NCBI GenBank assembly: GCA_946536315.1
Contig: CAMNEH010000007.1
Span: forward strand, 1 to 50,032
Source: an uncultured Clostridia bacterium
Lineage (GTDB): Bacteria > Bacillota > Clostridia > Christensenellales > Aristaeellaceae
Length of the DNA stretch: 50,032 bases
Direction: 5' to 3'
Under the pieces are notes generated by a model. It ran no database searches. It worked only from the letters and a program-made list of their open reading frames with translations, and was not told the DNA's origin. How positions within the stretch are numbered: position 1 is the first letter of the stretch; each line of letters opens with the position of its first letter. This document shows positions 6,754 to 29,552 of the stretch, one piece after another. The translations under genes and the position numbers were made by a program.

Positions 6754-7749
6754 TCAGCCTTTCTTGTGCGGATCCGCGCCGGCAGGCGCCGCCGGCTGCG
6801 CGGCGTGCGCGATGCCGTTCCGCATTTCCGTATCCGCGATGGTGTTCTGCATTTTGTAATAATCCATCACGCCCAGCTTGCCGGATTTCAGCGCCTCTGC
6901 CATTGCCAGCGGCACCTGCGCTTCCGCCTCGACGACCTTCGCGCGCATCTCCTGCACGGCCGCCTTCATTTCCTGCTCATGCGCGACTGCCATCGCCCGG
7001 CGCTCCTCCGCCTTGGCCTGGGCGATGCGGCGGTCAGCCTCCGCCTGATCCATCTGGAGCTGCGCGCCGACGTTGCGGCCGACGTCCACATCAGCGATAT
7101 CGATGGACAGGATCTCATAAGCCGTGCCGGCGTCGAGGCCCTTGCCCAGCACGGTCTGGGAAATCAGGTCAGGGTTTTCCAGCACCGCTTCGTGGGAGAG
7201 CGAAGAGCCGATGGTCGTGACGATGCCCTCGCCGATACGCGCGATGATGGTCTCCTCACCAGCGCCGCCCACCAGGCGGTCGATATTGGTGCGCACCGTC
7301 ACACGCGCCTTGGCGCGCAGCTCGATGCCGTCCTTCGCGATCGCGGCCACGGGCGGCGTTTCGATAACCTTGGGCACGACGCTCATCTGAACCGCCTCCA
7401 GCACGTTCCTGCCGGCCAGGTCGATCGCGCAGGAGGTTTTGAAGGCGAGATTGATCCCCGCCTGATGCGCCGAAATCAGCGCGCTGACCACTCGCTCGAC
7501 GTTGCCGCCGGCCAGATAGTGGTTCTCAAGCTCGTCGGTCGTCAGTTCCAGGCCGGCCTTGCGGGCGCGGATATAGCTGTCCACGATTTTGGGCGGCGAG
7601 ATGTGCCTGAGCCGCATGCCGATGAGCGCGGAGATGCGCACCGGCACGCCGGACGCGCGGGCGCGGATCCACAGCCCGACCGGAAAAATGGCAAAAAAGA
7701 GAATCAAAACGAAGAAAACTACGACGACTGTAAATACATAGGGTATCAT
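6754..7749 (-). CDS. floA: Flotillin-like protein FloA
   Basis: [69 protein letters not shown] and the SPFH region match FloA; GGAGG sits 8 nt before the ATG at 7749. Confidence 0.93.
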
Positions 7750-7801
7750 GATATCCGCCTCCACATTCTCAGATTATGCAGAAACACTGTACCGCATGTT
7801 A

Positions 7802-7857: not shown

Positions 7858-7886
7858 TTGACGAAAAACAGTTTTCGTAATAAAAT
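7858..7886 (+). promoter_or_regulatory. Promoter for the envelope cluster: TTGACG - 17 bp - TAAAAT
   Basis: -35 at 7858-7863, -10 at 7881-7886; the spacer contains the inverted repeat acgaaaa-acag-ttttcgt (7861-7878). Confidence 0.65.
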
Positions 7887-7921
7887 TGAGACGATTCATT
7901 TCAACGGGAGTGATTCTGACG

Positions 7922-9280
7922 ATGATCAGCGTACGGAAATGCCTTGCATTCACGATACTTTTGATGATGATGTCCGTCAGCGCCATGGCGCTGGAGGTGA
8001 CCGTGCTGGACGAAGACGGCCGAGAAGCCGTCATGACCGGGTTTGAGCATGACGGACTGCCCGCGTGGTGGGCAGAGCTGCCGGAGGGCAGCGCCTTTGA
8101 CGGGCTCAGCGTCCGGCTTTCTGATGACAGCGGCGAGCCCGCCTCATTCACCGTCTCTCTGCCCGACGCCGGCGCAGATTATGACAGTGGGGCATATGCG
8201 GTGTTTTCTTTTCACGAACAGGAAATCCGCCTGTTTGCCAGCCACCTCGCCTACGCCCCCGCCGCTGACGGCGTGCGCAGCGTCCGCGCCGTCGGACAGT
8301 GGGCGCGCCTGCTGACCAACGCGCAGCTGCTCGCCCGACCGGACGCTCAGGCCGACGTCCTCGGCACCATCGACAGCTCGACGCGGTTCTTCCTGCTGTA
8401 TACATGCAGGAACAGGGGCACCGAATACGCCTGCGTCCGCGTCGCGGGCCAGACCTGCTTTCTGAAATCCGAGGATGTGCGCGTGCTGAGCGAGGCCACT
8501 TCGCTCAATCTGGACGCGCGGCTCCTTTCCGAACGCCGAAGCGCCGATGATGTGCGCTTCGCGCGCGCCGCCTATCAGGCCAATATCCGCTCCGCGATCG
8601 GCACCTCAAAGGACGCGATCATCGGTACAGTGCCCATCGACAGCCTGCTGCTGGTCCTGACCAGCGTCACGCTGGACAGGGTCGTCTATGACCTGGTCTA
8701 TGTGCCTGAAACCGCCGCCGTCGGCTTTGCGCATGACACCCAGCTGGCCGCGCTGACCGACGCGGAAGCCGCTGCCCTGCTGGCGGACCGGGAGTCCGGC
8801 GGGACCGACGCCCCAAGAGCCGGCGCCACCAACCGGGCGGTGCCGCTGCTCGCTTACCCCGCCTCGGACGCCGGCATCATCCAGTCCCTTGCGTCCGGTA
8901 CGGGCGTCACGGTATATGCCGCGGTGGATTCGCCTGAAGGGCGTTTCTGGCTGGCGGAAGCCGGGGAACAATTGGGCTATCTGCCCGACAGCGCGCTGAC
9001 CCTGACCGGCGGCACGCCGGACACGCAGAAGTCCCTCACTGTCCAGGCCAGCCTGGAAGACGCCTTGTACAGCCAGCGCATGACCGTCGCGGTGCGTGAA
9101 GCGCTGCTGTACCAGCAGCCTTCCTATACCGCCGCCTGCGCGGCGCGTCTGTCCGATGGTGCTGTGGTCACCGTGCTGGCCGGAGAAGCCGGCTGGCTGC
9201 AGGTCAGCGCTGCGGATCAGATCGGCTGGCTGCCCGCCGAATACGTATCGCCTGTCCGTCTTGGCGCCATGGAGGAATGA
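7922..9280 (+). CDS. Exported protein with several SH3-like modules
   Basis: Signal peptide MISVRKCLAFTILLMMMSVSAMA; about four degenerate SH3b-like modules such as AVREALLYQQPSYTAACAARLSDGAVVTVLAGEAGWLQVSAADQIGWLPAEYV. Confidence 0.7.
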   Translation: MISVRKCLAFTILLMMMSVSAMALEVTVLDEDGREAVMTGFEHDGLPAWWAELPEGSAFDGLSVRLSDDSGEPASFTVSLPDAGADYDSGAYAVFSFHEQEIRLFASHLAYAPAADGVRSVRAVGQWARLLTNAQLLARPDAQADVLGTIDSSTRFFLLYTCRNRGTEYACVRVAGQTCFLKSEDVRVLSEATSLNLDARLLSERRSADDVRFARAAYQANIRSAIGTSKDAIIGTVPIDSLLLVLTSVTLDRVVYDLVYVPETAAVGFAHDTQLAALTDAEAAALLADRESGGTDAPRAGATNRAVPLLAYPASDAGIIQSLASGTGVTVYAAVDSPEGRFWLAEAGEQLGYLPDSALTLTGGTPDTQKSLTVQASLEDALYSQRMTVAVREALLYQQPSYTAACAARLSDGAVVTVLAGEAGWLQVSAADQIGWLPAEYVSPVRLGAMEE

Positions 9281-9284
9281 GGAC

Positions 9285-12200
9285 TTGAACACCCGAAGAT
9301 TCTTCGCCGTTTTGCTCCTGCTCCTGGCCGTTTCCGTCAACGCTCTGGCGACGGACGCAGGCCAGGAGGCGCAGCTGGCGGCGGTATGGCTGGATCAGGA
9401 CGCCATTGAGCGGCGCGTCACCGCCGCGCTGGTGACAGCCGAAGCGTCACAGGACGCTGTGTGCGACATTGTTTTACCGCTCGAAGCGCTGCCAGAGCTG
9501 ACATTCTACCTGTCGGACGGTCCCCTGGCGGCGGACGAAGTCCTGCCCCAGCCCCTGACCGTCATCACTTATGAGCATACGGACGCGCTTTCGACCCTGT
9601 ATATTCTGCAGGACGAGGTGACCGGCCGGCTCATCTCGGCCAATGTCCGCCTTGGCATCGATCCCGGGAGCGGTGACGTTGCGTTCTCTGCGCCGGACGG
9701 GGATGCCGGTGAGCAGTCCGTCCCCGCGCCGGACACATCCGTCACCCCCGGCCCATCCGCGACGGTGACCGTGATTGCCCACTACCAAACGGCCGATGGC
9801 GTCAGCATTGCTGACGACGACCAGTATCAGGCGCAGCGGGGCACCACCTTTTCCGTGTACGCGCACACGATGGGCGAAGGCTGGATCAGCCAGAATGATC
9901 AGATCCAGTTTGTTGATATTCCCATGGACGCGACCGGACCGGTCGAGGTCACCTTTCTTTACGCCCGTCCGACGCCGACACCGCCGCCGCCGGACGTCCG
10001 CATCACCGTCCATTACCGCGACATCGGCGGCATTCCCGTCGCCTCCGATACGTCACTCATGCTGGCCGGCGGTACAGAGGCGGACGTTTACGCCGCGCCG
10101 GAGGACCTGAAGGAGCATTACGTCCCCACCAGCGAATCAGTGCAGCGTATTTCCGTCAATGCTGCCGGAGAGCCGCAGGAAGTCATCTTTTTCTACACAT
10201 TTGAAACACCCGCCACGCCCGCGCCCGCTTACGTCCGTGTGCAATACCTGAACGCGCAGGGGGACGCCGTGGCGGCGGACGGACAGCTCAGCGGGTCCCC
10301 GGGGCAGCAGATGACCATCTTCGCCGCGCCTGAACAGCTTGAAGCATATTATGTGCTTGCCGACGAAGAGTCGAAACCCGTGACCCTGTCAGAAAGCGGG
10401 ACCACTGTCACTGTCAGCTTCCTCTATCGGTATGAGCCTCCGGAAACGCCCGCGCCCTCCGATACGCCGCTGCCCACCGTCACCGCGACGCCCCAGCCCG
10501 CGCCGGTGCTCGGATTTGTACAGGTTTCCTACGTGTATCAGGGAAACGATTCCCTGAATTATTCCGCGCCGGAGACGGTCTACATGGGTGAGAACGTTCT
10601 GAGCGGCGCGGAAGGGCTCCGTACCGGATATCGCCTGGTTTCTGCCGAAGAGGTCACCGTTGATGTGGACGAGAACGGCCAGGTATCCCCCAACCAGGTC
10701 ACCTTCCTCTACGCGCCGGAAAACAGCGCCGTCAGCATGCCTGAGCTGATCGTTCAGTATTTTGCGGAAAACGGCGCTCAGGTCGCCACCTCCACCCTGC
10801 TTCAGCTGCAGCCGGGCGAAAACACCGTATACGCGACGCCGGTGGATCTGATGGAAGGCTATGAACAGATCACGCCCTCTTATACCGTGACCGTCAGCAA
10901 CGACGGCGTCGCCAGCGACGAGGTCGTCACCTTCTACTACAAGCCCGTTCAGGACGGTCAGACCACGGCCGGCGGTTATCAGGTGCTGCCGGCGAACGGA
11001 TACGCCCGTTCGAAGAACGATTCGGTCAATCTGCGCTCAGAGCCCACGACGGATTCGGATGCCAACATCATCGGCAAAATCAGCAAGACGGACCTCATCC
11101 AGATCCTGGGGACCGCGACCAATCACGGCAAATGGTATTACGTCAGCGTCAACGAACGGCAGGGCTACGTCAGCGCCAGCGTCGTGACCGAGCTGTCTGA
11201 CGCCGACGCGCAGGTCCTGCTCAGCCTGCACGGCGCCGACACCGGCGACGATACGCTGGCCGACCCCGAAACCGGTCTCATCGAGCGCTGGGCGCAGATC
11301 AACAAGCGCGTCTGGTTCAGGGATCAGCCCAACGGAAAAAAGATTCAGGAGCTGCGCGGTTCGGCCCGCGTCTTCGTGGATGAGGCGACGGACGTCGACG
11401 GCACGCTCTGGTACCAGGTCCGCTACAACGGAAAGCGCGGGTACGTGATGGCTGAATACCTGAATGTCTATTCGGCCGCGGAATCCCAGAGCCTGCAGTT
11501 TTCGCTGCCCAGCGCGGTGCCGACGCACACGCCCGCAGCGACCCGCGTCCCCACCTCGACCCCGACGGCCTTCGTGCCGACCCCTTCGCCCACCCCGGTG
11601 CCGGTGACTCCCACGCCTGTCAGCAGCGCCACGCCGCTGCCGTATTCAGGCTACGCCGTCACCAATACGCGCGCCGTCATCCGCTCCGGCCTGAGCACCG
11701 ACAACCCCGCGCTGGTGACCCTGAACGGGGAAACGCTGGTCATGATACAGGGACAGACCTACGTCAACGGCGTATGCTGGGATTCTGTCCGCGTCATTTC
11801 CAGCGGAATCACCGGATTTGTGGAGGACGACCGCCTCTACCACGTGACCAACGACGTCGCGCAGGAGTATCTTGAAACGCAGTCCACCCCCACCCCCGTC
11901 CCCACGCCTGAAAATACGCCCCTCCCGTTTACCGGCTATGCGCTGATCCTGGTGGACGGCGTGCCGCTGCGCCAGCAGGCCAACAGCAACGCGTCGTACC
12001 TGTCCATCCTGTCCGAGGGCGCGGTCATCAGCGTGCTCAGGCAGTCCACCTCCGACGACGGCAGCAGCTGGTGCCTGATCCAGAGCGGGATGTATTTGGG
12101 ATATGTACGGCGGGACCTGCTCCGCGCGATGACGGACGAGGAGATATTCGAATACCTTGAATCCATCAAGTCCAGGCCCACGCCCACTCCGGCCGTCACG

Positions 12201-13214
12201 CCGACCCCCCGCGCGCAGAGCGCGATGGACTCCTGCTGGGGCATCGTGAAGCCGGATCACGTGCAGCTGCGCTCTGAGCCCAGCATGACCACGGGTACTG
12301 CGCTCAGACTGATGAGCCGGAATGAGTTTCTGCAGGTACAGGGCAGCTTTTTAGGCGAGGACGAGCAGGTCTGGCACCTGGTGCAATACAATGGACTGAC
12401 AGGATACATTCGCGCGGATTACGTCCAGATCCTGGCCCAGGGAGAATTGACCAGCGTGGTCACCAGCGACGATTTCAAGAGCGCCAACACCACCGAGACC
12501 ACCGTCACCGGCGTGGACTCCATCCAGTCCTATGAGACCTTTCTCGTCAACCAGTGGACCAATCCGTCGCTGAGCGCGTCTTTCCAGCCCTTTGACCCCT
12601 ATACGACGCCGGTGGCCGTTCTGTCGGTACAATCCTCAGAAACCACGGAAACAGCGGCGAACCCGACGCCGACTGTGACGTATCCGCCGACGCCGCAGGC
12701 GACCATCATCGTGAACCCCGACAGGACGCCATTGCCCAATGCGGAGGGCGGCAGCCATTTCGGCACCGTGCTGATCGGCGCCGGCGTGATCGCGGCGCTC
12801 GGCGGCGCGGGCTTTGCATGGGCCTCGATCCGCGGCAAAAAGCGCCGCCAGGCGCTTCAGCGCGCGCAGGCCATCCAGCGCCGGCAGCGCAGGGCCGCCG
12901 GAGAAGCCGGATCGGACACCAAAGCGCCGTCTGTCTCCGCTTACCGCCGTGACGCGACGGAAAGCTTTGCACTGAAGGGCACCGCGCGCCCGATTCCCCG
13001 CGACGGGAACCGCTACGCAGAAAACCCGCGTTCCCCCGCGCCGGAAAGCAAGCCGGACACGCCCCCCGAATCCGCCCGGTTTCGCCGCCCCGAATCGACG
13101 GCTGCATTTTCACCCGCTCACGCGGCGAGCGCCGCGCCCGCGTCTGACACGCCGCAGCGTCCCGGCCGTCAGCGGCGCACTGAACGAAATCATTACGATG
13201 AGGATGGAAACTGA
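9285..13214 (+). CDS. ~1309-aa surface protein: MucBP-like repeats, SH3b-like repeats, C-terminal TM and cytoplasmic tail
   Basis: TTG start at 9285 preceded by ggaggaatgagg and followed by a signal peptide (NTRRFFAVLLLLLAVSVNALA); about five MucBP-like and five SH3b-like modules; TM FGTVLIGAGVIAALGGAGFAWASIRGKKRRQ. Confidence 0.75.
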   Translation: MNTRRFFAVLLLLLAVSVNALATDAGQEAQLAAVWLDQDAIERRVTAALVTAEASQDAVCDIVLPLEALPELTFYLSDGPLAADEVLPQPLTVITYEHTDALSTLYILQDEVTGRLISANVRLGIDPGSGDVAFSAPDGDAGEQSVPAPDTSVTPGPSATVTVIAHYQTADGVSIADDDQYQAQRGTTFSVYAHTMGEGWISQNDQIQFVDIPMDATGPVEVTFLYARPTPTPPPPDVRITVHYRDIGGIPVASDTSLMLAGGTEADVYAAPEDLKEHYVPTSESVQRISVNAAGEPQEVIFFYTFETPATPAPAYVRVQYLNAQGDAVAADGQLSGSPGQQMTIFAAPEQLEAYYVLADEESKPVTLSESGTTVTVSFLYRYEPPETPAPSDTPLPTVTATPQPAPVLGFVQVSYVYQGNDSLNYSAPETVYMGENVLSGAEGLRTGYRLVSAEEVTVDVDENGQVSPNQVTFLYAPENSAVSMPELIVQYFAENGAQVATSTLLQLQPGENTVYATPVDLMEGYEQITPSYTVTVSNDGVASDEVVTFYYKPVQDGQTTAGGYQVLPANGYARSKNDSVNLRSEPTTDSDANIIGKISKTDLIQILGTATNHGKWYYVSVNERQGYVSASVVTELSDADAQVLLSLHGADTGDDTLADPETGLIERWAQINKRVWFRDQPNGKKIQELRGSARVFVDEATDVDGTLWYQVRYNGKRGYVMAEYLNVYSAAESQSLQFSLPSAVPTHTPAATRVPTSTPTAFVPTPSPTPVPVTPTPVSSATPLPYSGYAVTNTRAVIRSGLSTDNPALVTLNGETLVMIQGQTYVNGVCWDSVRVISSGITGFVEDDRLYHVTNDVAQEYLETQSTPTPVPTPENTPLPFTGYALILVDGVPLRQQANSNASYLSILSEGAVISVLRQSTSDDGSSWCLIQSGMYLGYVRRDLLRAMTDEEIFEYLESIKSRPTPTPAVTPTPRAQSAMDSCWGIVKPDHVQLRSEPSMTTGTALRLMSRNEFLQVQGSFLGEDEQVWHLVQYNGLTGYIRADYVQILAQGELTSVVTSDDFKSANTTETTVTGVDSIQSYETFLVNQWTNPSLSASFQPFDPYTTPVAVLSVQSSETTETAANPTPTVTYPPTPQATIIVNPDRTPLPNAEGGSHFGTVLIGAGVIAALGGAGFAWASIRGKKRRQALQRAQAIQRRQRRAAGEAGSDTKAPSVSAYRRDATESFALKGTARPIPRDGNRYAENPRSPAPESKPDTPPESARFRRPESTAAFSPAHAASAAPASDTPQRPGRQRRTERNHYDEDGN

Positions 13215-13217
13215 ATC

Positions 13218-14174
13218 ATGAACGTCAAGCTTATCCCACTGCTCGCGCTGCTGATCCTGTGTGTCAGCGGCTGCGCCGTGAGTCTGGCCGCGCCGGATTG
13301 GATCGACCTGCCGGAGGACCTGCTGACCAGGCTATCCGCCGGCGGTGAAACCATCGTAGACCCGGTGCTCCCGGTCCCCCAGCATGTCCGCGCGCTCCTG
13401 CGGATCGCCCGGAACGAGCTCGGCTATCAGGAGGAACGCGGCAACGTGACCAAATACGGTCAGTGGGCCGGCAACCCATCGGCCGAGTGGTGCGCGGAAT
13501 ACCTGTGCTGGTGCGTCGACCAGCTCGATCAGCAATCGGGCACGCAGATACTGACGACCTATTACCCGCGTTACAGCAGCAAGAATATCGGCATGCGCTG
13601 GTTTCTGAAGGAAGGGCGCTACATCGCCCGCCGGGGCACCGTGCCGGGCTGGGGCTCGCAATGGTATATCAGCAGCGGAGAGAGCATCGGCAAGAACGGT
13701 TATATTCCCCAGCCCGGCGACTGGGCGTTCTTTGCCCAGTCCTCCGCCGGCGATACCACCCACGTCGCGATGGTGGAATTCTGCACGCAGGACAGGGATG
13801 GCGTCGTCCGCGCCTATATGCTCGAAGGCAATAAACCGGACAGAGTCCAGGAAACCGCTTACCGGATCACTGAGGAAACCATTCTCGGCTACGGCACGGT
13901 GTTCGACCTGGCCGACATTGTCATCAAAAGCGGCTGCGAAGGCAAGAAGGTGGAAACCCTGCAGCGCAGGCTGCACGACGTCGGGCTGCTCTCAGACGCA
14001 TATATCACCGGCACGTATGGCACACACACTGCCGACGCCATCCGCGAATTTCAGAAATCCCAGGGCATAGAGACCACCGGCGTCGCCGCCCAGCAGACGC
14101 AATTAGCGCTGCAGCGCTATATCGACCGCTATCAGGCCGAGCACCCGGAGTACTGGGAAGTCGTCGAAGAATAA
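13218..14174 (+). CDS. Lipoprotein with CHAP-like amidase domain and C-terminal peptidoglycan-binding domain
   Basis: Lipobox LCVSGC; AEWCAEYLCWCVD with later HVAMVE as candidate Cys/His; PG_binding_1-like VETLQRRLHDVGLLSDAYITGTYGTHTADAIREFQKSQGIETTGVA. Confidence 0.8.
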   Translation: MNVKLIPLLALLILCVSGCAVSLAAPDWIDLPEDLLTRLSAGGETIVDPVLPVPQHVRALLRIARNELGYQEERGNVTKYGQWAGNPSAEWCAEYLCWCVDQLDQQSGTQILTTYYPRYSSKNIGMRWFLKEGRYIARRGTVPGWGSQWYISSGESIGKNGYIPQPGDWAFFAQSSAGDTTHVAMVEFCTQDRDGVVRAYMLEGNKPDRVQETAYRITEETILGYGTVFDLADIVIKSGCEGKKVETLQRRLHDVGLLSDAYITGTYGTHTADAIREFQKSQGIETTGVAAQQTQLALQRYIDRYQAEHPEYWEVVEE

Positions 14175-14213
14175 TCCGTTATCCGTGTCAACGCGCACCC
14201 GGAAGGAGATATC

Positions 14214-15749
14214 ATGCCGTCCTATCAGGATGAACAACCATATTTTACCCCTGTCGGCGGGTCAGGCCAGCCGCAGCGGGCCATGGGCAGCGTGCCCCCG
14301 CCCGTTCAGCTGGACCCGTCGCTGTTCGGACCGGATATTCCGCCCAACGGTCCCGCCCCTGCCGGGCCCGGCTACGCGCCGGCGCAGGGAAACGGCCCAT
14401 ATCAGGCGCCCGGGCAGCCACAGCGCGCGGCCGGACAGGCCCCGCCCGTATTTCAGGAGGAACCGCCGCCCGAGCAGGCGACGCCTTCTTCCGCCGGCGG
14501 GCAGGGATCGCCCGGCAAGCCCGGCTATCACGTGCCCCGGACGGGGGTCGTCAGCCGTCCGAAAAGGTCCGGACTCCCCTACGTACTGCTCGCTGTACTG
14601 ATCATCGGCCTGACCGCGTTCGCCGCCATCCGCCATTTTGCCCCTCAGGAGGCGATGTACGGCTACGTTTCCGCCGGCGTGCTGTCCTCCAGGTACACAG
14701 GCAGCGCCATGCTGGTGCGCGACGAAACGGTCTACACACAGGAAAGCATCTCGCAGATCGATTACACCGCCGAGGAGGGCACCGAAGTCGACCGTACCAC
14801 CGTCGTCTGTACCGTGTATACGTCAGGCTTCAACACCCGTGAGCTGACCACGCTCAAGCGTTACCGCGACCAGATCAAGGAATACCACAAGCAGCTGATC
14901 GCCACCTCCGGCGCCGCGCGCGACGCGAGGCTGACCACGCTCGACACGCAGGTCCGCGACCTGGCCAAAACCACGCGCATGATGATCCAGGAGGGACGCG
15001 GCAATCTGATCAACCAGGAAGCGCTCATGACTGAAACCCTCCAGGCGCGCCAGTCCTATCTGCGCCAGAAATACCCGAACGACCAGAAGCTGTCCCGCCT
15101 CTATGACGACGAAAACAACCAGCTGCAGCGCATTTCAAGCTGGACCAAGCAATACGCCGCCGCCTCCAACGGCATCGTCAGCTTCTATATCGACGGATAC
15201 GAACCCGTCCTGAACCTGAATACCTACCTGAATTTTTCTCCGTCAGAAGTCCGCAGCATGTACAACGGTCAGATCCCCTCCAATCCTTCCGCGACGCGCA
15301 ATACCGTATCCATTTACCGTCTGGTGAAGGACGGCGCGTGGGCCGCGCTGATGCTGTGCGACGATACCGACTGGACGCCCGTCGTCGGACAGACCTATAA
15401 GCTGCTGATCGAGTCCTTCGAAAATACGGTCGTAGACGCGACTGTCGACAGCTTTACGCGCGCGGGCGGCGAGCTGCTGGTCCGGCTGAGCGTCAACGCC
15501 GGCAGCGTCCGCGATATCCTCTATATCCGTTCCTGCCAGGTTCAGCTGGGCGAAAACGTCGACAGTCTGACCGTGCCCACCCGCGCGCTGTACACGCAGA
15601 TGGGCCAGACCGGCGTCGTGATCGTCGATGAATACGGGAATAATTACTTTACCCAGGTTTCCGTCATTTCCACCCAGGGCGACATCACGCACATCATTCC
15701 CCGCAACGCTGGCGTGCTGTACGAAGGCATGCTGGTCAAGCTATTTTAA
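14214..15749 (+). CDS. HlyD-like membrane protein with Pro/Gly-rich cytoplasmic N-terminus
   Basis: Single TM YVLLAVLIIGLTAFAAIRHF; downstream barrel-sandwich/coiled-coil pattern like uncharacterised Gram-positive HlyD-type proteins; aaggaga RBS. Confidence 0.6.
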   Translation: MPSYQDEQPYFTPVGGSGQPQRAMGSVPPPVQLDPSLFGPDIPPNGPAPAGPGYAPAQGNGPYQAPGQPQRAAGQAPPVFQEEPPPEQATPSSAGGQGSPGKPGYHVPRTGVVSRPKRSGLPYVLLAVLIIGLTAFAAIRHFAPQEAMYGYVSAGVLSSRYTGSAMLVRDETVYTQESISQIDYTAEEGTEVDRTTVVCTVYTSGFNTRELTTLKRYRDQIKEYHKQLIATSGAARDARLTTLDTQVRDLAKTTRMMIQEGRGNLINQEALMTETLQARQSYLRQKYPNDQKLSRLYDDENNQLQRISSWTKQYAAASNGIVSFYIDGYEPVLNLNTYLNFSPSEVRSMYNGQIPSNPSATRNTVSIYRLVKDGAWAALMLCDDTDWTPVVGQTYKLLIESFENTVVDATVDSFTRAGGELLVRLSVNAGSVRDILYIRSCQVQLGENVDSLTVPTRALYTQMGQTGVVIVDEYGNNYFTQVSVISTQGDITHIIPRNAGVLYEGMLVKLF

Positions 15750-15779: not shown

Positions 15780-17678
15780 ATGAAAGAGGGACGGCCCGAC
15801 AGCAAGCCCATCATATCCTATTTAGTTATTGTCACACTGATCATCTTTCTGGCGAATGCATTCCTGTTTCCCCAGATTTTGAACGAAAGAGTGGAGGAAG
15901 TACCCTATACTACCTTCCTGAAAACCCTCGAAAGTGGAGAAAACGGGTTTTCTATCACCGAAGCCAGCCTGGATGACGAGCACCGCACCCTGATCTACAG
16001 GATGGAGAATCCGACGACCGGCGAATCAAAGTATTATACCACCAATATCTGGCCGGACGACCAGAACCTGCTCGGCCTGCTCACCGCCAACAACGTCAAG
16101 ATCGTCGTCCAGATCCCGACGCAGGCCAATCCGATCATCGCCTTCCTGATTTCATGGTTCCTGCCCATCATCATCTTTATCGTTCTGGGCCAGATTCTGC
16201 TGCCGAAGATCATGAACGGCGCGGGCGGACAGAACGTGCTTTCGCTGGGCAAGGCGAACGCGAAGATCTACATCGAGTCGCAAACCGGCAAAACCTTTCA
16301 GGACGTGGCCGGCCAGGACGAGGCCAAGGAACAACTGAAGGAAATCGTCAGCTTCCTGCACGACGGCGACCGCTACCGTCAGATCGGCGCCAAGCTGCCC
16401 AAGGGCGCGCTGCTGGTCGGACCTCCCGGCACCGGCAAAACGCTGCTGGCCAAGGCCGTCGCGGGCGAAGCCGGCGTCCCATTCTTCTCCATCAGCGGCT
16501 CAGAGTTTGTTGAAATGTTCGTGGGCATGGGCGCGGCCAAGGTCCGTGACCTGTTCAAGCAGGCGACGGAAAAAGCGCCGTGCATCGTTTTCATCGATGA
16601 GATCGATACCATCGGCAAAAAGCGCGACGCCGCCGCGGGCATTTCCGGCGGCAACGACGAGCGTGAGCAAACCCTGAATCAGCTGCTGGCCGAGATGGAT
16701 GGCTTCGACGCCGCCAAAGGCGTCGTGATCCTCGCCGCGACCAACCGGCCGGAAATCCTCGACCCCGCGCTGCTGCGCCCGGGCCGCTTCGATCGCCGGA
16801 TCCCCGTGGAGCTGCCGGACCTGAAGGGCCGGATCGCGATCCTGAACGTGCACGCCCGCGACGTGAAAATGGCTGCCGGGATCGATATGTCGGCCATCGC
16901 GCGCGCTACCTCTGGCGCTTCCGGCGCCGAGCTGGCCAACATCATCAACGAGGCCGCGCTGCGCGCCGTCCGCGAAGGTCACAGCGAAGTGACCCAGGAA
17001 GACCTGATGGAGAGCGTCGAGACCGTCATCGCGGGATACCAGCGCAAGGGCGCGGTCATCTCCGACCGTGAGAAGAAGGTCATCGCGTATCACGAGATCG
17101 GGCACGCCCTGGTCGCCGCGCGCCAGAAAAATGCCGCCCCGGTCACCAAAATCACGATCATCCCCCGCACCAGCGGCGCGCTGGGCTATACCATGCAGGT
17201 GGAAGAGGACGAGAAAGTGCTGTTGAGCCGCGAGGAGGCGATGGTCCAGCTGGCCACCCTGACAGGCGGCCGGTCCGCTGAGGAGATTGTGTTTGGCACC
17301 GTTACCTCCGGCGCGTCCAACGATATCGAAAAGGCTACGCGCCTGGCCAGGGCGATGGTTACCCGCTACGGCATGTCCAGCCAGTTCGATATGGTCGCGC
17401 TCGAAACCGTGACCAACCAGTACCTGGGCGGGGATACCTCCCTGGCCTGCAGCGCCGAAACCGCGGCGCTGATCGACCAGGAAGTCAACAGCATCGTCCG
17501 CGAAGCGCACGAAAAAGCCCGGACGATTCTGAAGGAGAACCGCCAGAAGCTGGATGAGCTGGCCGCATACCTGCTCGACCGCGAAACCATCACCGGGGAC
17601 GAATTCATGGACATTCTCAACCGGCCGGAGCGCCTGGAAGAGGCCGAGGTCCCCAGGCTCGGCGGGGAAACAGCATAA
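15780..17678 (+). CDS. ftsH: ATP-dependent zinc metalloprotease FtsH
   Basis: Walker [29 protein letters not shown] region, zinc motif HEIGH. Confidence 0.95.
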
Positions 17679-17683
17679 CACAG

Positions 17684-17705
17684 ACGGGAGGCGCTCGCCT
17701 CCCGT
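17684..17705 (+). terminator. Hairpin after ftsH (possible weak terminator)
   Basis: acgggaggc-gctc-gcctcccgt perfect 9-bp stem; the T-tract is interrupted (tcgctctttc). Confidence 0.45.
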
Positions 17706-17755: not shown

Positions 17756-17783
17756 TTGACATTTGCCTGAAAATGAGTATAAT
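17756..17783 (+). promoter_or_regulatory. Consensus promoter TTGACA - 16 bp - TATAAT
   Basis: -35 17756-17761, -10 17778-17783, upstream of the ABC binding protein. Confidence 0.85.
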
Positions 17784-23694: not shown

Positions 23695-26625
23695 TCACGA
23701 TTCGTCCGGATAATCGCCTTCAAAGATATACAGCTGTGTCGCTTTGTCGGCAATGCCGGTCACCTTGAGGCCGTGATCCTGCTGATAGGCCAGCACGGCG
23801 TTGTGCGTATTCACACCGTAATTGCCGGTCACATTGATCTTATAGTAGCCCAGCTTCTTCAGCTGCGCCTGGAGCCGCTCCACAGGGGCGCCGCTGTCGC
23901 CCATTTTCAGCACGATGTAGCCGGACGGCGGATCGGTGACGGTCACGTAATCCGGCGGGCTGGTTTTCGCGATATTGGGCGTGGACGTGCTTCGCGGTGT
24001 CGCCGTCGGGCGCGGCGTGCGCGTCGGCGCAGCCGTAGGCTCTGCCTGATAGATCCGGCGCTGGACAGAGGACCCGGCAATGCCGTCCTGCTTCAGGCCA
24101 TAATCCTTCTGGAAGGCCATCACCGCCTGATAGGTGGTGACGCCATAGCGCCCGTCAGAATTGCCTTTGTAGTAGCCGAGCTTCCTGAGCGCGGTCTGCA
24201 GCGCCTTGACAGGATCGCCCCGCGTGCCCATCGACAGCGTCGGGAACTGCCCGTTCGGCGCCGCCGTCACGGTCTGGTAGGACGGCGGATTGGTCAGCCT
24301 CGGTGTAGCGGTCACGCGGGGAGTGTTGGTGCGTCTGGGCGTCGCCGTCACGCGTGGCGTGGCCGTTCTGCGCGGCGTCGCCGTGACCCGCGGCGTGGCC
24401 GTTCTGCGCGGCGTCGCCGTGACCCGCGGTGTGGCCGTTCTGCGCGGCGTCGCCGTGACCCGTGGCGTGGCCGTCCTGCGCGGTGTCGCCGTCACCCGTG
24501 GCGTAGCCGTCCTGCGCGGTGTCACCGTCACTCGCGGCGTGACCGTCACCCGCGGACTGGGCGTCGGCGTGCGGTTGTAGTCACCGCCAAACAGCATCCG
24601 CTGCATTTGGGTGCTGGCCACGCCATTTTGCTTCAGGCCGTTATTGGCCTGGAAATGCATGACCGCCTGGTAGGTGGCGCTGCCGTATTCGCCGTCAGCA
24701 GTCCCCTTGAAATATCCGCCTTTTTTGAGCGCCGTCTGCAGCGCCTTCACCGGCGCGCCGCTGTCGCCCATTTTCAGGGAGACATAGGTCGAGCCGACCG
24801 GCGGATTGGTCACCGTACGGTATCTGGGCGGGTTGGTGACGGTTTTCGGCGTCGGCGAGGCCGTCGGCTTGAGGCCGAAGAGCCGCTTGTTCGTCTCGTC
24901 ATTCGCGACGCCCGTCTGCTTCAGGCCATTGGCCTTCTGGAAAGCAATGACCGCGTCATAGGTCGACTTGCCGAACTGACCGTCCGCCTTGCCGGTGAAA
25001 TATTTCGCTTTTTTCAGCGCGTTCTGCAGCTGGGTGACGGGCGCGCCGCTGTCGCCCATGCGCAGCGTGATATAGCTGGAGCCGACCGGCGGATTGGTGA
25101 CCGTGCGGTATACGGGCGGATTGGTGCCGGACCCGGGCATGGGCGAGGGCGTCGCGGTGGGCCTCACGCCGTAAAGCAGATTCAGCGTCGCCAGACCGGC
25201 GACGCCATCCACCTTGACGCCATTTGCCAATTGAAAGGCGCGCACTGCCTCATAGGTGCTGACGCCAAATTGGCCGTCCACCGTGCCGGTATAGTATTTG
25301 GCCCGTTTCAGCGCGGTCTGCATCTGCCTGACCGGCGTGCCGCTGTCCCCCATGCGCAGTGTCGCGTATCCGGAGGGCGCCGCGGTGACGGTTTTCCAGC
25401 TCGGCGGGTTCGTGGCTTTGGACGTCGCGGGCGTCGAACCGCCCGACCGCGGCGTGACCACTGCGACGACGCTTGCCTTCGAGGCGTCATAGCGTTTAGG
25501 AGTCCCCGTAAAGAGCAGCGTCAACGTTCGGCCGCCGGCGACACCGTCCGCCGACAGGCCGTTCTGGGACTGGAACTCCTTGACCGCCACGGTGGTGTTC
25601 GCGCCGAAATCGCCGTCCACGGTCCCGTTGAAGTAGCCCAGTGCCTTCAGCTTGCGCTGCAGGGTCTTGACCGCTTCGGTGTCCTGAGCGCCTTCCTTCA
25701 GGCTGATGCCGATGATGCCGGAGGAGGTCGCGGCCTTTCTGGCGTTCTGACCGTACATGGCCGTCAGGGTTTCGGCCCCCGCGATGCCGTCCGCGGTGTC
25801 CAGATTGCGGCTCTGGAAGGCAATGACCGCCTGCTCGGTGATCTCGTCATACTTGCCCGTCGGCTTTCCGTTCAGATACCCGAGGGATAACAGACGGCGC
25901 TGCATGGTCAGTGTCGCATCGTTATTGGAGCCGCGCTGCAGAATGATGTTTTTGCCGATGCGCGGCGTCGCCGTCGGCCTCGGGGTCGGCGTCGCCGTCG
26001 GACGCGCTGTCATTTTGGCCGTATTCAATGTTTCGAGGGTCTTATCGCCGGCGACGCCATCGGCCGTCAGGCCATAGGCGCGCTGGAAATTGGTCACGGC
26101 CGTCTTGGTGGCCGCGCCGTAATCGCCGTCAATATTGCCGGAATAGAAGCCCAGCGCCTTCAGCTTCCGCTGCAGCTCGCGGACGCCTTCGTTTTTCTTG
26201 AGGCCGAAGCGCAGCACGCTGCTGGTCGGGGTCGGGGTCGCGGTCGGCCGGGGCGTGTTGGTCTGCGGAATCGGCGTCTGGTTCGGCTGTGTCGGCAGGA
26301 CCACGGTCGTGCCGGCCTGCGTCTGGCCATCCTGTGTTCCGGTCTGCGCCTGCGGCGCTGCTGTCATCCCCGCGGCACCGGGCAGCATCACGATCGTGGT
26401 GGTAGCCGGCTCGGCGGTAATCAGCAGCGGTGTGGCCGTGGGCGCCTGAGTGACCGTAGGCATCAGGGAATATTCCGGATACGGGACGTTGTTCCCATAG
26501 CTCGACTCATTGCCGCTCTGGATGATATCCGGCTCCACATAACAGCCGCTGAGCACGATCGCAATCACCAGCAGCAGGGCTGTCAGCGAAATGGTCTGCC
26601 TGTTCACGCGTTTCATGGGTAGCAA
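23695..26625 (-). CDS. 976-aa lipoprotein with eight peptidoglycan-binding (PG_binding_1-like) repeats
   Basis: Lipobox VLSGCYVEPD; eight modules of form LKMGDSGAPVKALQTALKKLGYYKGxxDGxYGxxTYQAVMAFQKxxGLKxDGVA joined by Thr/Pro linkers. Confidence 0.88.
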   Translation of the reverse strand: MLPMKRVNRQTISLTALLLVIAIVLSGCYVEPDIIQSGNESSYGNNVPYPEYSLMPTVTQAPTATPLLITAEPATTTIVMLPGAAGMTAAPQAQTGTQDGQTQAGTTVVLPTQPNQTPIPQTNTPRPTATPTPTSSVLRFGLKKNEGVRELQRKLKALGFYSGNIDGDYGAATKTAVTNFQRAYGLTADGVAGDKTLETLNTAKMTARPTATPTPRPTATPRIGKNIILQRGSNNDATLTMQRRLLSLGYLNGKPTGKYDEITEQAVIAFQSRNLDTADGIAGAETLTAMYGQNARKAATSSGIIGISLKEGAQDTEAVKTLQRKLKALGYFNGTVDGDFGANTTVAVKEFQSQNGLSADGVAGGRTLTLLFTGTPKRYDASKASVVAVVTPRSGGSTPATSKATNPPSWKTVTAAPSGYATLRMGDSGTPVRQMQTALKRAKYYTGTVDGQFGVSTYEAVRAFQLANGVKVDGVAGLATLNLLYGVRPTATPSPMPGSGTNPPVYRTVTNPPVGSSYITLRMGDSGAPVTQLQNALKKAKYFTGKADGQFGKSTYDAVIAFQKANGLKQTGVANDETNKRLFGLKPTASPTPKTVTNPPRYRTVTNPPVGSTYVSLKMGDSGAPVKALQTALKKGGYFKGTADGEYGSATYQAVMHFQANNGLKQNGVASTQMQRMLFGGDYNRTPTPSPRVTVTPRVTVTPRRTATPRVTATPRRTATPRVTATPRRTATPRVTATPRRTATPRVTATPRRTATPRVTATPRRTNTPRVTATPRLTNPPSYQTVTAAPNGQFPTLSMGTRGDPVKALQTALRKLGYYKGNSDGRYGVTTYQAVMAFQKDYGLKQDGIAGSSVQRRIYQAEPTAAPTRTPRPTATPRSTSTPNIAKTSPPDYVTVTDPPSGYIVLKMGDSGAPVERLQAQLKKLGYYKINVTGNYGVNTHNAVLAYQQDHGLKVTGIADKATQLYIFEGDYPDES
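24320..24555 (-). repeat. 36-bp coding minisatellite (12-aa VTATPRRTATPR unit)
   Basis: Five units at 24356-24391, 24392-24427, 24428-24463, 24464-24499, 24500-24535 (first two identical), flanked by degenerate units. Confidence 0.9.
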
Positions 26626-27316: not shown

Positions 27317-28903
27317 TCAGTTGACGCCGATCGTTTCGATGCCCTTCAGCATATCCGGTTCCCGGATATCGCGCACATTGGTGAACAGGTATCGCGTCAA
27401 TACCGCGCCGCCGCGGTAATACAGGCAGATAAACGGACAGTCCTGCGCAAAGATCGTCTGGATCCGGCGAAGCGCCTGCTGATAGCTGTACTGGTTGGTG
27501 CACTTGCGCAGGTCGTTAATCGCGTTGTTCATTTCACTGTTCCTGTATCGCCCGTAATTGCCGGTGTTGGGACCGTACAGCAAAAAGCCTGGATCAGGGA
27601 CGGAATCCATCTGGAACGCCGCCAGACACAGGTCAAAATTCCCTGCCTGCAGCCGTTCCTTGGCCAGCGCAAACGACACCAGGTACACGCGGACCTCGAT
27701 GCCCGCCTTGGCGAGCTGGTCGCGGATTTCGTTGGCCGTTTCCACGCGGACAGAGTTTTCCGCTTCTTCATACACCCACAGGCGCAGCGAAAGGTTGACG
27801 CGCTTACCGTCCCGCATCATGTCGCGGATGCCGTCCTCGTTGGTATCGACCCAGCCGGCTTCCTCCAGCAGGCGGTTGGCTTTCGCCAGGTTGTAGGTGA
27901 AATAATCCTCACCGTTATCGTCGCTGGGATCATAATACATCCACGTGCCGCGGGGAAACGGCGTGTCCGTCCGCGAGGTCATCCCATAGTAGGCATTGTT
28001 CGACAGCGAATCAGGGTCCAGCGCGTAGCGGATCGCCCAGCGGACGTTGACGTCCTCCAATTCGTACGAATTCAGGTTGATCAGAAGCGTCTCCAGCTGC
28101 CGCGTTCGATAGTCCATATTGACGCTGGTGACGCCGCCGCGGTACTGCGCGGTGGTCACCGAGCGCGTGACGATGGCGTCCACGCGGTTATACTCATAGT
28201 CTGCCGTCAGATCACGGTTGGTGGCGGAAAAAAAGGCGTTGATGTTCTTGACGTGCGGTTCCTCCCCCCACCAGTAGGGATTGTACGAAAGGTACAGGTA
28301 ATTTGCCGGACTGAAGCTGTCGGCGCGGTATGGCCCGGACCCGATGGGATACTCGAACTGGACCTCCGAGGCCTTCAGGATGGGGAAGTTCATGGCATAA
28401 ATCACGCCGTAATACGGCCTCGCCGCCGTAATGATCACGGTTTTGGCGTCATTGGCCGACGCGGAGGAGACCACATACCTCAGCGACGCGTAGACGCCGT
28501 GGTTTTCGGCGTTTTCATCCTTGGCCAGGCGCAGGATCTCATTGACTGTCGCGGCGACGTCGTAGGCCGTCAGCTGTGTGCCGTCGCTGAAATAGACGTC
28601 ATCGCGCAGAACGAAGGTCCAGCTTTTGCAGTCGTCGCCATAGCGCCAGTCTGATGCGACATAGGCTTCCGGCTCATACTGATCGTTCAGCCGGATCAGG
28701 CTTTCATACATCAGGCTGTGCAGGGACTGAAAATCCCGCTCGAGCGCCCACAGTGGGTTCAGGTAATTGGTCTTGACGGAGATCATTCCGACAGAAAACG
28801 TGTCAGAGGTCAGCTGCTGCGCCTGACAGGCGCACAGAAGCAGGGCCGCCGTCAGCAGCACTGTGACCAGTATCCGGGTAATAATGTTCGCAATAGATCG
28901 CAT
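27317..28903 (-). CDS. ABC transporter substrate-binding lipoprotein (peptide/nickel type, SBP_bac_5)
   Basis: Lipobox LLLCAC; family patterns such as WTFVLRDDVYFSDGTQLTAYDVAATVNEI, GSGPYRADSF and NPYWWGEEPHVKNI. Confidence 0.88.
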   Translation of the reverse strand: MRSIANIITRILVTVLLTAALLLCACQAQQLTSDTFSVGMISVKTNYLNPLWALERDFQSLHSLMYESLIRLNDQYEPEAYVASDWRYGDDCKSWTFVLRDDVYFSDGTQLTAYDVAATVNEILRLAKDENAENHGVYASLRYVVSSASANDAKTVIITAARPYYGVIYAMNFPILKASEVQFEYPIGSGPYRADSFSPANYLYLSYNPYWWGEEPHVKNINAFFSATNRDLTADYEYNRVDAIVTRSVTTAQYRGGVTSVNMDYRTRQLETLLINLNSYELEDVNVRWAIRYALDPDSLSNNAYYGMTSRTDTPFPRGTWMYYDPSDDNGEDYFTYNLAKANRLLEEAGWVDTNEDGIRDMMRDGKRVNLSLRLWVYEEAENSVRVETANEIRDQLAKAGIEVRVYLVSFALAKERLQAGNFDLCLAAFQMDSVPDPGFLLYGPNTGNYGRYRNSEMNNAINDLRKCTNQYSYQQALRRIQTIFAQDCPFICLYYRGGAVLTRYLFTNVRDIREPDMLKGIETIGVN

Positions 28904-29552
28904 ATGAATTGATCACCTTTCTGGCATATTCCTTCGTGGACTGCGTCGGAATGTCGCTGAAGCGCAGTGTCCGGTGGTCGTCCGAATACTTGTACAGCCA
29001 ATAATCCACATTGTTGGGTCCCGCATGATACGCGCATGCCACCAGGACCGGATCTCCGCCGAACCGGTCGGAAAGGATCCGCACATAGTTGGCGCCGATG
29101 CAGATATTCGTTTCCGGATCGAACAGATCCTCCTCCGTGACGTTCCGACCGTCATATTTTGTCCCCCGGACATACGTCAGCGCGGACGGTATCAGCTGCA
29201 TCAGCCCACGCGCCTGGGTGGAGGCGACGAACGCGTACGGGTCGTAGCTGCTCTCGTTCAAGATGATCGCCGCCAGGAACGCCGGCCGCAGCCCATATTC
29301 GGCCGCATACTGCTCGATCAGGGAACGGTACTTGACCGTCGTGCGGTACACGCGGCGGTCATAGGCGGCCTTTTCCTCGTCGAGCGCCTGGCGCAGGTCG
29401 GCCAGCCTGGCGTCGCTGACCAGCAGCTTCGCGAAGCAGAAGAGCAGCAGCACGCTCATGCCGCAGATGGTCAGCCATTGTCCGCGCGAAAGGCGGCGCT
29501 TTTTCCGCCGGGCCTGCCGCCTGCCGCCCGGCGTCCTGTCATTCTGCTGCAT
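28803..29552 (-). CDS. Lytic transglycosylase (SLT domain)
   Basis: N-terminal TM; AIILNESSYDPYAFVASTQARGLMQLIPSA, ICIGANYVRILSDRFGGDPVLVACAYHAGPNNVDYWL. Confidence 0.9.
   Translation of the reverse strand: MQQNDRTPGGRRQARRKKRRLSRGQWLTICGMSVLLLFCFAKLLVSDARLADLRQALDEEKAAYDRRVYRTTVKYRSLIEQYAAEYGLRPAFLAAIILNESSYDPYAFVASTQARGLMQLIPSALTYVRGTKYDGRNVTEEDLFDPETNICIGANYVRILSDRFGGDPVLVACAYHAGPNNVDYWLYKYSDDHRTLRFSDIPTQSTKEYARKVINSYAIYCEHYYPDTGHSAADGGPASVRLSGAAADL

Follow-up and report, generated by a model that had tools for sequence, protein, structure and literature searches.

We have analyzed a stretch of 50,032 nucleotides, referred to below as the window, from contig CAMNEH010000007.1 of an uncultured Clostridia bacterium of gut type (assembly GCA_946536315.1, family Aristaeellaceae), and focus here on four consecutive genes for envelope proteins, A, B, C and D, and on the ftsH gene that follows them. 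All five lie on the + strand with intergenic gaps of 4, 3, 39 and 30 bp (Table 1), and the gene positions, the gaps, the single promoter-like site in front and the distance of 30 bp to ftsH that an earlier note had read from this DNA are borne out by the coordinates. That note let the system begin at 7858, where a promoter-like site is indeed located; there is no start codon at this position, A beginning at 7922 or at the TTG at 7886. Since the consensus scan shows the + strand to be devoid of further promoter-like sites from 7886 through ftsH, and since an inverted repeat and a promoter-like site with 12/12 matches come after ftsH, the genes from A to ftsH are likely to form a single transcription unit. 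Hydropathy analysis places hydrophobic segments at the N-termini of A, B and C and one segment in D (residues 121-139), in agreement with the export or membrane signals that had been claimed for all four products, and the wall-binding and wall-cutting modules of the cluster are real as well (SH3_3, MucBP, PG_binding_1 and CHAP matches).

Table 1. Features of the locus, with their positions in the window, and proteins of the family that carry the motif found in the tail of B.
Feature	Position	Strand	Remarks
Promoter-like site TTGACG-17-TAAAAT, 5' of gene A	7858..7886	+	consensus scan, 10/12 matches; predicted
Gene A, 452 aa, C-terminal SH3_3	7922..9280	+	ATG start; in-frame TTG at 7886 possible alternative
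Gene B, 1309 aa, single-pass membrane protein	9285..13214	+	TTG start
B transmembrane segment, residues 1162-1180	12768..12824	+	hydropathy; also in B orthologues examined
Docking-type motif RQRRTERN near B C-terminus	13167..13190	+	consensus RxRR[ST][DE]R[YFHN]
Gene C, 318 aa, CHAP + PG_binding_1	13218..14174	+	
Gene D, 511 aa, HlyD/MFP-like (MFP, membrane fusion protein)	14214..15749	+	
ftsH	15780..17678	+	last gene of probable transcription unit (three species of genus); outside conserved units
9-bp GC-rich inverted repeat, 3' of ftsH	17684..17705		repeat listed on - strand; likely end of unit
Promoter-like site downstream of ftsH	17756-17783	+	consensus scan, 12/12 matches; predicted
Motif host: BamB-like PQQ propeller			
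Motif host: SLT transglycosylase			beside CoaE
Motif host: VanW/PG_binding_4/G5 protein			
Motif host: FtsL-like protein, 194 aa			between MraZ-like and MurE-like genes
Motif host: FHA-like protein			5' of RodA/FtsW-like and PBP-like genes
Motif host: small membrane protein			behind CdaA/CdaR-like genes
Motif host: B-like SH3 protein			

Eight genomes of the genus were compared, G000 being that of the window. The full order A-B-C-D-ftsH is present in three species (G000, G062 and G063) and was not found elsewhere in the genus and family comparison. Relative to the other two cluster-bearing species B is only 60% and A 41-44% identical, with values for the cluster proteins overall of 41-88%, yet both the order and the short gaps are retained, and on this account the arrangement appears to exceed what chance would produce. 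In G006 the genes A-B-C are followed by GuaA-like and GNAT genes, which also follow B-C in G054, G061 and G064; in all, 7 of the genomes of this genus have B and C side by side. Among the other genera looked at, B directly precedes C in g5, g9, g15 and g30 and in one unplaced metagenome-assembled genome, so that the gene pair spans about six genera. Relatives of C are found in 91 of 150 family genomes (genus included) and, where B does not precede them, are located beside GuaA-like/GNAT genes or beside VanW-SfsA and a phosphatase-like gene. In G006 and G054 (L061, L062) D comes directly after parA-parB and one more gene, and in G061 it accompanies yggS; sepF and divIVA are present, and D is lacking, in the sepF clusters of G000, G062, G063, G054 and G006. 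Because B-C and D thus occupy separate neighborhoods in other members of the genus and in other genera, the window cluster is read as one that arose recently, when B-C and D, both of them older units, came together with ftsH. The genus and family comparison rules against the four-gene order as an ancient system. FtsH was likewise rejected as a partner, as its gene adjoins D only in the three cluster-bearing species and a second FtsH, 48% identical, is encoded elsewhere in the genome.

The giant protein B has a signal peptide, four SH3_3 domains (2e-26), a weak MucBP match (28.4 bits versus a cut-off of 23) and MucBP-like units. It had been proposed to span from wall to cytoplasm, and this is upheld, as the transmembrane segment is followed by a basic cytoplasmic tail of 129 residues. 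MucBP-like units in a giant exported protein are also typical of sortase-anchored MucBP surface proteins, but B differs from these by a cytoplasmic tail of 129-229 residues, of freely diverging sequence, in all orthologues examined and by the absence of a C-terminal LPXTG-type signal with a short basic tail, and sortase anchoring was therefore rejected.

C combines a signal peptide with PG_binding_1 (3e-12) and a CHAP match of 27.3 bits, just over the Pfam cut-off of 26, and Cys92, His182 and Glu203 are invariant in an alignment of 20/20 relatives. The AlphaFold2 model is confident (mean pLDDT 88), and in Foldseek searches its C-terminal part corresponds to the SleB peptidoglycan-binding domain, with weak matches of the model to CHAP endolysins and NlpC/P60 proteins. 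We predict that C is a secreted CHAP-type peptidoglycan hydrolase, presumably an active one. CHAP and TIGR02594 hydrolases have the same Cys-His-Glu residues, PG_binding_1 domain and signal peptide; C is distinguished from them by its pairing with a membrane-spanning SH3/MucBP protein, and a literature search for MucBP together with SH3 and CHAP returned one general review. The description of C as a lipoprotein has to be dropped as a family property, because the VSGC lipobox is confined to this species and absent from the closest relatives. A, with one SH3_3 domain (9e-11) and its N-terminal hydrophobic segment, is predicted to be secreted or N-anchored. Full-length relatives are found only in G062, G063 and, at 29% identity, G006, and A, which is restricted to this genus, may be a genus-specific additional SH3 protein of the B-C unit.

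Despite the divergence of the B tail, nearly all orthologues retain, at a distance of ~10-17 residues from their C-terminus, the motif RxRR[ST][DE]R[YFHN] or a closely similar sequence. Among 1279 distinct genes, drawn from neighborhoods selected for C and D, 14 carry the motif (B orthologues in 12 cases, BamB-like propeller proteins in 2), compared with an expectation of 0.075 genes from residue shuffles and with a mean of 0.07 and a maximum of 7 for 392 permuted motifs. The motif had been defined on B, and the independent evidence is therefore provided by the non-B cases. When matches to the corresponding degenerate DNA pattern were considered, 14 of the 40 for which flanks were fetched proved to be in frame in called genes, and every one of these genes (14/14) encodes a protein with one predicted transmembrane segment, relative to which the motif is predicted to be cytoplasmic; exactly one such segment is found in 23% of sampled genes. 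The hosts are envelope proteins and comprise at least six single-pass families besides B (Table 1), where genes without a Pfam match were named by eye from their sequence. Of 28 BamB-like orthologues 10 have the strict motif and 17 the strict or a relaxed form, the copy of the window genome reading RHRRMSRY, and in SLT transglycosylase orthologues from other genera (L191, L200) the motif reads RRRRSDRY.

D is a single-pass protein (HlyD_2 match, 4e-24) with a disordered cytoplasmic N-tail, a transmembrane segment at about residues 121-142 and an extracellular hairpin and barrel. A Foldseek search connects it to CusB, MacA, AcrA, EmrA and Spr0693 (E 4e-12, probability 1.00), with a low TM-score that reflects a different placement of domains. 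The fold, with its transmembrane segment, lipoyl-like half, helical hairpin and beta-barrel, is common to D and the HlyD/MFP adaptors MacA, EmrA, CusB and Spr0693, from which D differs by its disordered cytoplasmic N-tail and by a single-copy, sepF-linked gene in a pump-less cluster. It can be aligned over 170 residues with TIGR02828, 'putative membrane fusion protein', but scores 29.5 bits, below the cut-off of 154.4. Of 60 family genomes 56 have a D match, almost without exception in single copy, and in most of the family loci examined the gene is found at the head of yggS-sepF-(yggT)-(ylmH)-divIVA. At the level of the phylum the D profile matches 86 of 200 Bacillota genomes, and in 58 of the 61 other Bacillota genomes where coordinates for both D and sepF were listed D directly precedes sepF, in the same orientation and within 1.7 kb, with one further case at 4.8 kb. 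The earlier treatment of A-B-C-D as one unit is only partly supported, the conserved partner of D being sepF rather than A-B-C or ftsH. No link between HlyD and SepF proteins was found in the open-access papers searched; a 2025 localization screen of C. difficile morphogenesis proteins reports SepF, DivIVA and YlmG at midcell, and its main text does not mention an HlyD protein (PMC12548448). Given the linkage to sepF, annotation of D as an efflux adaptor is probably misleading, and a role in division or the septal envelope would be the better assignment.

Tyr25, Asp31 and Asp35 of GpsB (B. subtilis numbering) bind Arg-rich peptides of bitopic wall enzymes, the consensus for pneumococcal PBP2a being (S/R)RS(R/G)(K/S)xR (PMC6335420), and the published GpsB docking consensus is (S/T/N)-R-x-x-R-(R/K) (PMC11062636). 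The motif RxRR[ST][DE]R[YFHN] has an R-x-x-R core and an RRS run in common with these sequences, but not the full consensus. In DivIVA proteins encoded next to sepF the groove Tyr is present in 25/25 and each Asp in 24/25 distinct sequences, where the Tyr belonged to the search expression, so that the count is fully independent for the second Asp alone; the sepF-linked DivIVA of the window genome (GYKRKEVDMFLDE) contains the Tyr and both Asp residues. As these groove residues are retained, it is plausible that the sepF-linked DivIVA is the hub for the motif. To our knowledge, B. subtilis DivIVA itself is without the two Asp residues. The features in common with the GpsB docking network are bitopic wall enzymes and divisome proteins whose cytoplasmic tails contain an Arg-rich peptide, the presence of an acidic-groove DivIVA/GpsB-family protein and clients of several unrelated folds, while the consensus differs here and the hub is putative. 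We know of no GpsB client that is an SH3/MucBP scaffold, a BamB-like propeller, a VanW protein or an FHA protein.

The ordinary part of this locus is the recent gene cluster. Of interest are the conserved B-C pair, whose docking-type peptide recurs on other proteins, and the HlyD-like D with its linkage to sepF. The earlier note had missed this linkage and the peptide conserved in the B tail, which are the two most informative features. The explanation that we favor, with not quite an even chance of being correct, is that a B-C scaffold-hydrolase unit operates on a DivIVA/GpsB-type hub and has been joined with a protein of the sepF cluster. B would act as a scaffold in contact with C, gripping the wall through its SH3/MucBP domains, and C would cut peptidoglycan outside the cell; docking of the peptide at the end of the B tail on the cytosolic hub would keep wall cutting at sites of growth or division. 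The second unit would be D, an HlyD-fold member of the sepF-divIVA division cluster with no need for an efflux pump, which would have been relocated beside B-C and ftsH in three species, where it is probably co-expressed with them. The trans-envelope system of the earlier note survives in its wall modules, in the spanning topology of B and in the co-occurrence and identical gene order in three species, the outcome of the neighborhood search that had been suggested as a check; it does not survive as a deeply conserved four-gene system.

It could also be argued that the genes became neighbors accidentally. A relocated gene of the sepF cluster and ftsH would then merely share a promoter with a secreted SH3/CHAP pair of the ordinary kind, there would be no joint function, and B would be a passive surface protein. 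D is found in at least three settings within one genus (yggS type, parAB and B-C) and ftsH has joined in three species only, as this explanation would have it; however, order and short gaps persist at 41-88% protein identity, B-C recurs in other genera and the B tail peptide is conserved, and we consider it rather unlikely. Conservation of the peptide could be accounted for differently if a Hanks-type Ser/Thr kinase phosphorylated the motif as a basophilic site (R-x-R-R-[ST]), in place of constitutive docking through the peptide. The Arg-rich run does immediately precede Ser/Thr in most cases, but several orthologues have Gly, Ala or Met at this position with R-x-R-R-x-x-[RK]-[YH] retained, leaving a phosphorylation site improbable. 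Finally, the cluster might be devoted to the secretion of C or A, with D as adaptor to an ABC or MFS exporter. Exporters of Gram-positive bacteria do employ MFP-like proteins, and D has both the HlyD_2 match and the MFP fold, but there is no transporter gene beside it in the window, its conserved partners are yggS, sepF and divIVA, and A, B and C each have an export-type segment of their own at the N-terminus. The chance that D is an exporter adaptor is very small.

A wider proposal, which we put forward as possible rather than probable, is that RxRR[ST][DE]R[YFHN] constitutes a family-wide docking code, shared by seven or more mutually unrelated envelope proteins of single-pass type (B, the BamB-like propeller, the SLT transglycosylase, and the VanW/G5, FtsL-like, RodA/PBP-associated FHA and cdaAR-linked proteins), by which wall synthesis, wall cutting and division would be brought together at a single cytosolic hub, with the sepF-linked DivIVA as the probable candidate, and that D is a general, so far unstudied sepF-cluster member in Bacillota. 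Several observations weigh against the favored B-C/hub explanation. The B tail sequence RQRRTERN fails the GpsB consensus, agreement being limited to the R-x-x-R core and to charge (PMC11062636). The degenerate DNA pattern is not enriched, with 121 matches in 100 family genomes versus 149 for the reversed control, so that raw pattern enrichment was discarded and only in-frame matches at the protein level are informative. Neither the strict nor the relaxed motif is present in 11 of the 28 BamB-like orthologues, and it is absent from the SLT transglycosylase of the window (28803-29552, - strand), which is membrane-anchored and encoded beside CoaE and PolA. Moreover, D and B-C are not linked in most relatives, so that functional coupling of the two units is weakly supported. 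If correct, the peptide code would allow the hub-linked wall proteins of a large and mostly uncultured family of Clostridia to be predicted by sequence alone, and the HlyD-like gene heading sepF operons across Bacillota would encode a division protein.

A few further observations concern the same proteins and their surroundings. The N-tail of D (window 14214-14570) and those of related genera have, by alignment, short conserved stretches of their own, PxTG[VIM] before the transmembrane segment and [WF]TxV near the start. At L200:2251-3705 CoaE and then an SLT transglycosylase domain are encoded in one open frame, and L231:700-1599 encodes an FHA-like membrane protein ending in RRRRSDRYL, before RodA/FtsW-like and PBP-like genes, a gene order reminiscent of the actinobacterial fha-rodA-pbpA. 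The gene for FloA, a flotillin, is located at 6754-7764 on the - strand, divergent from A; FloA was rejected as an upstream partner, as it is absent from the position before A in G062 and G063. A protein of 973 residues with eight PG_binding_1 repeats is encoded at window positions 23695-26616 (- strand).

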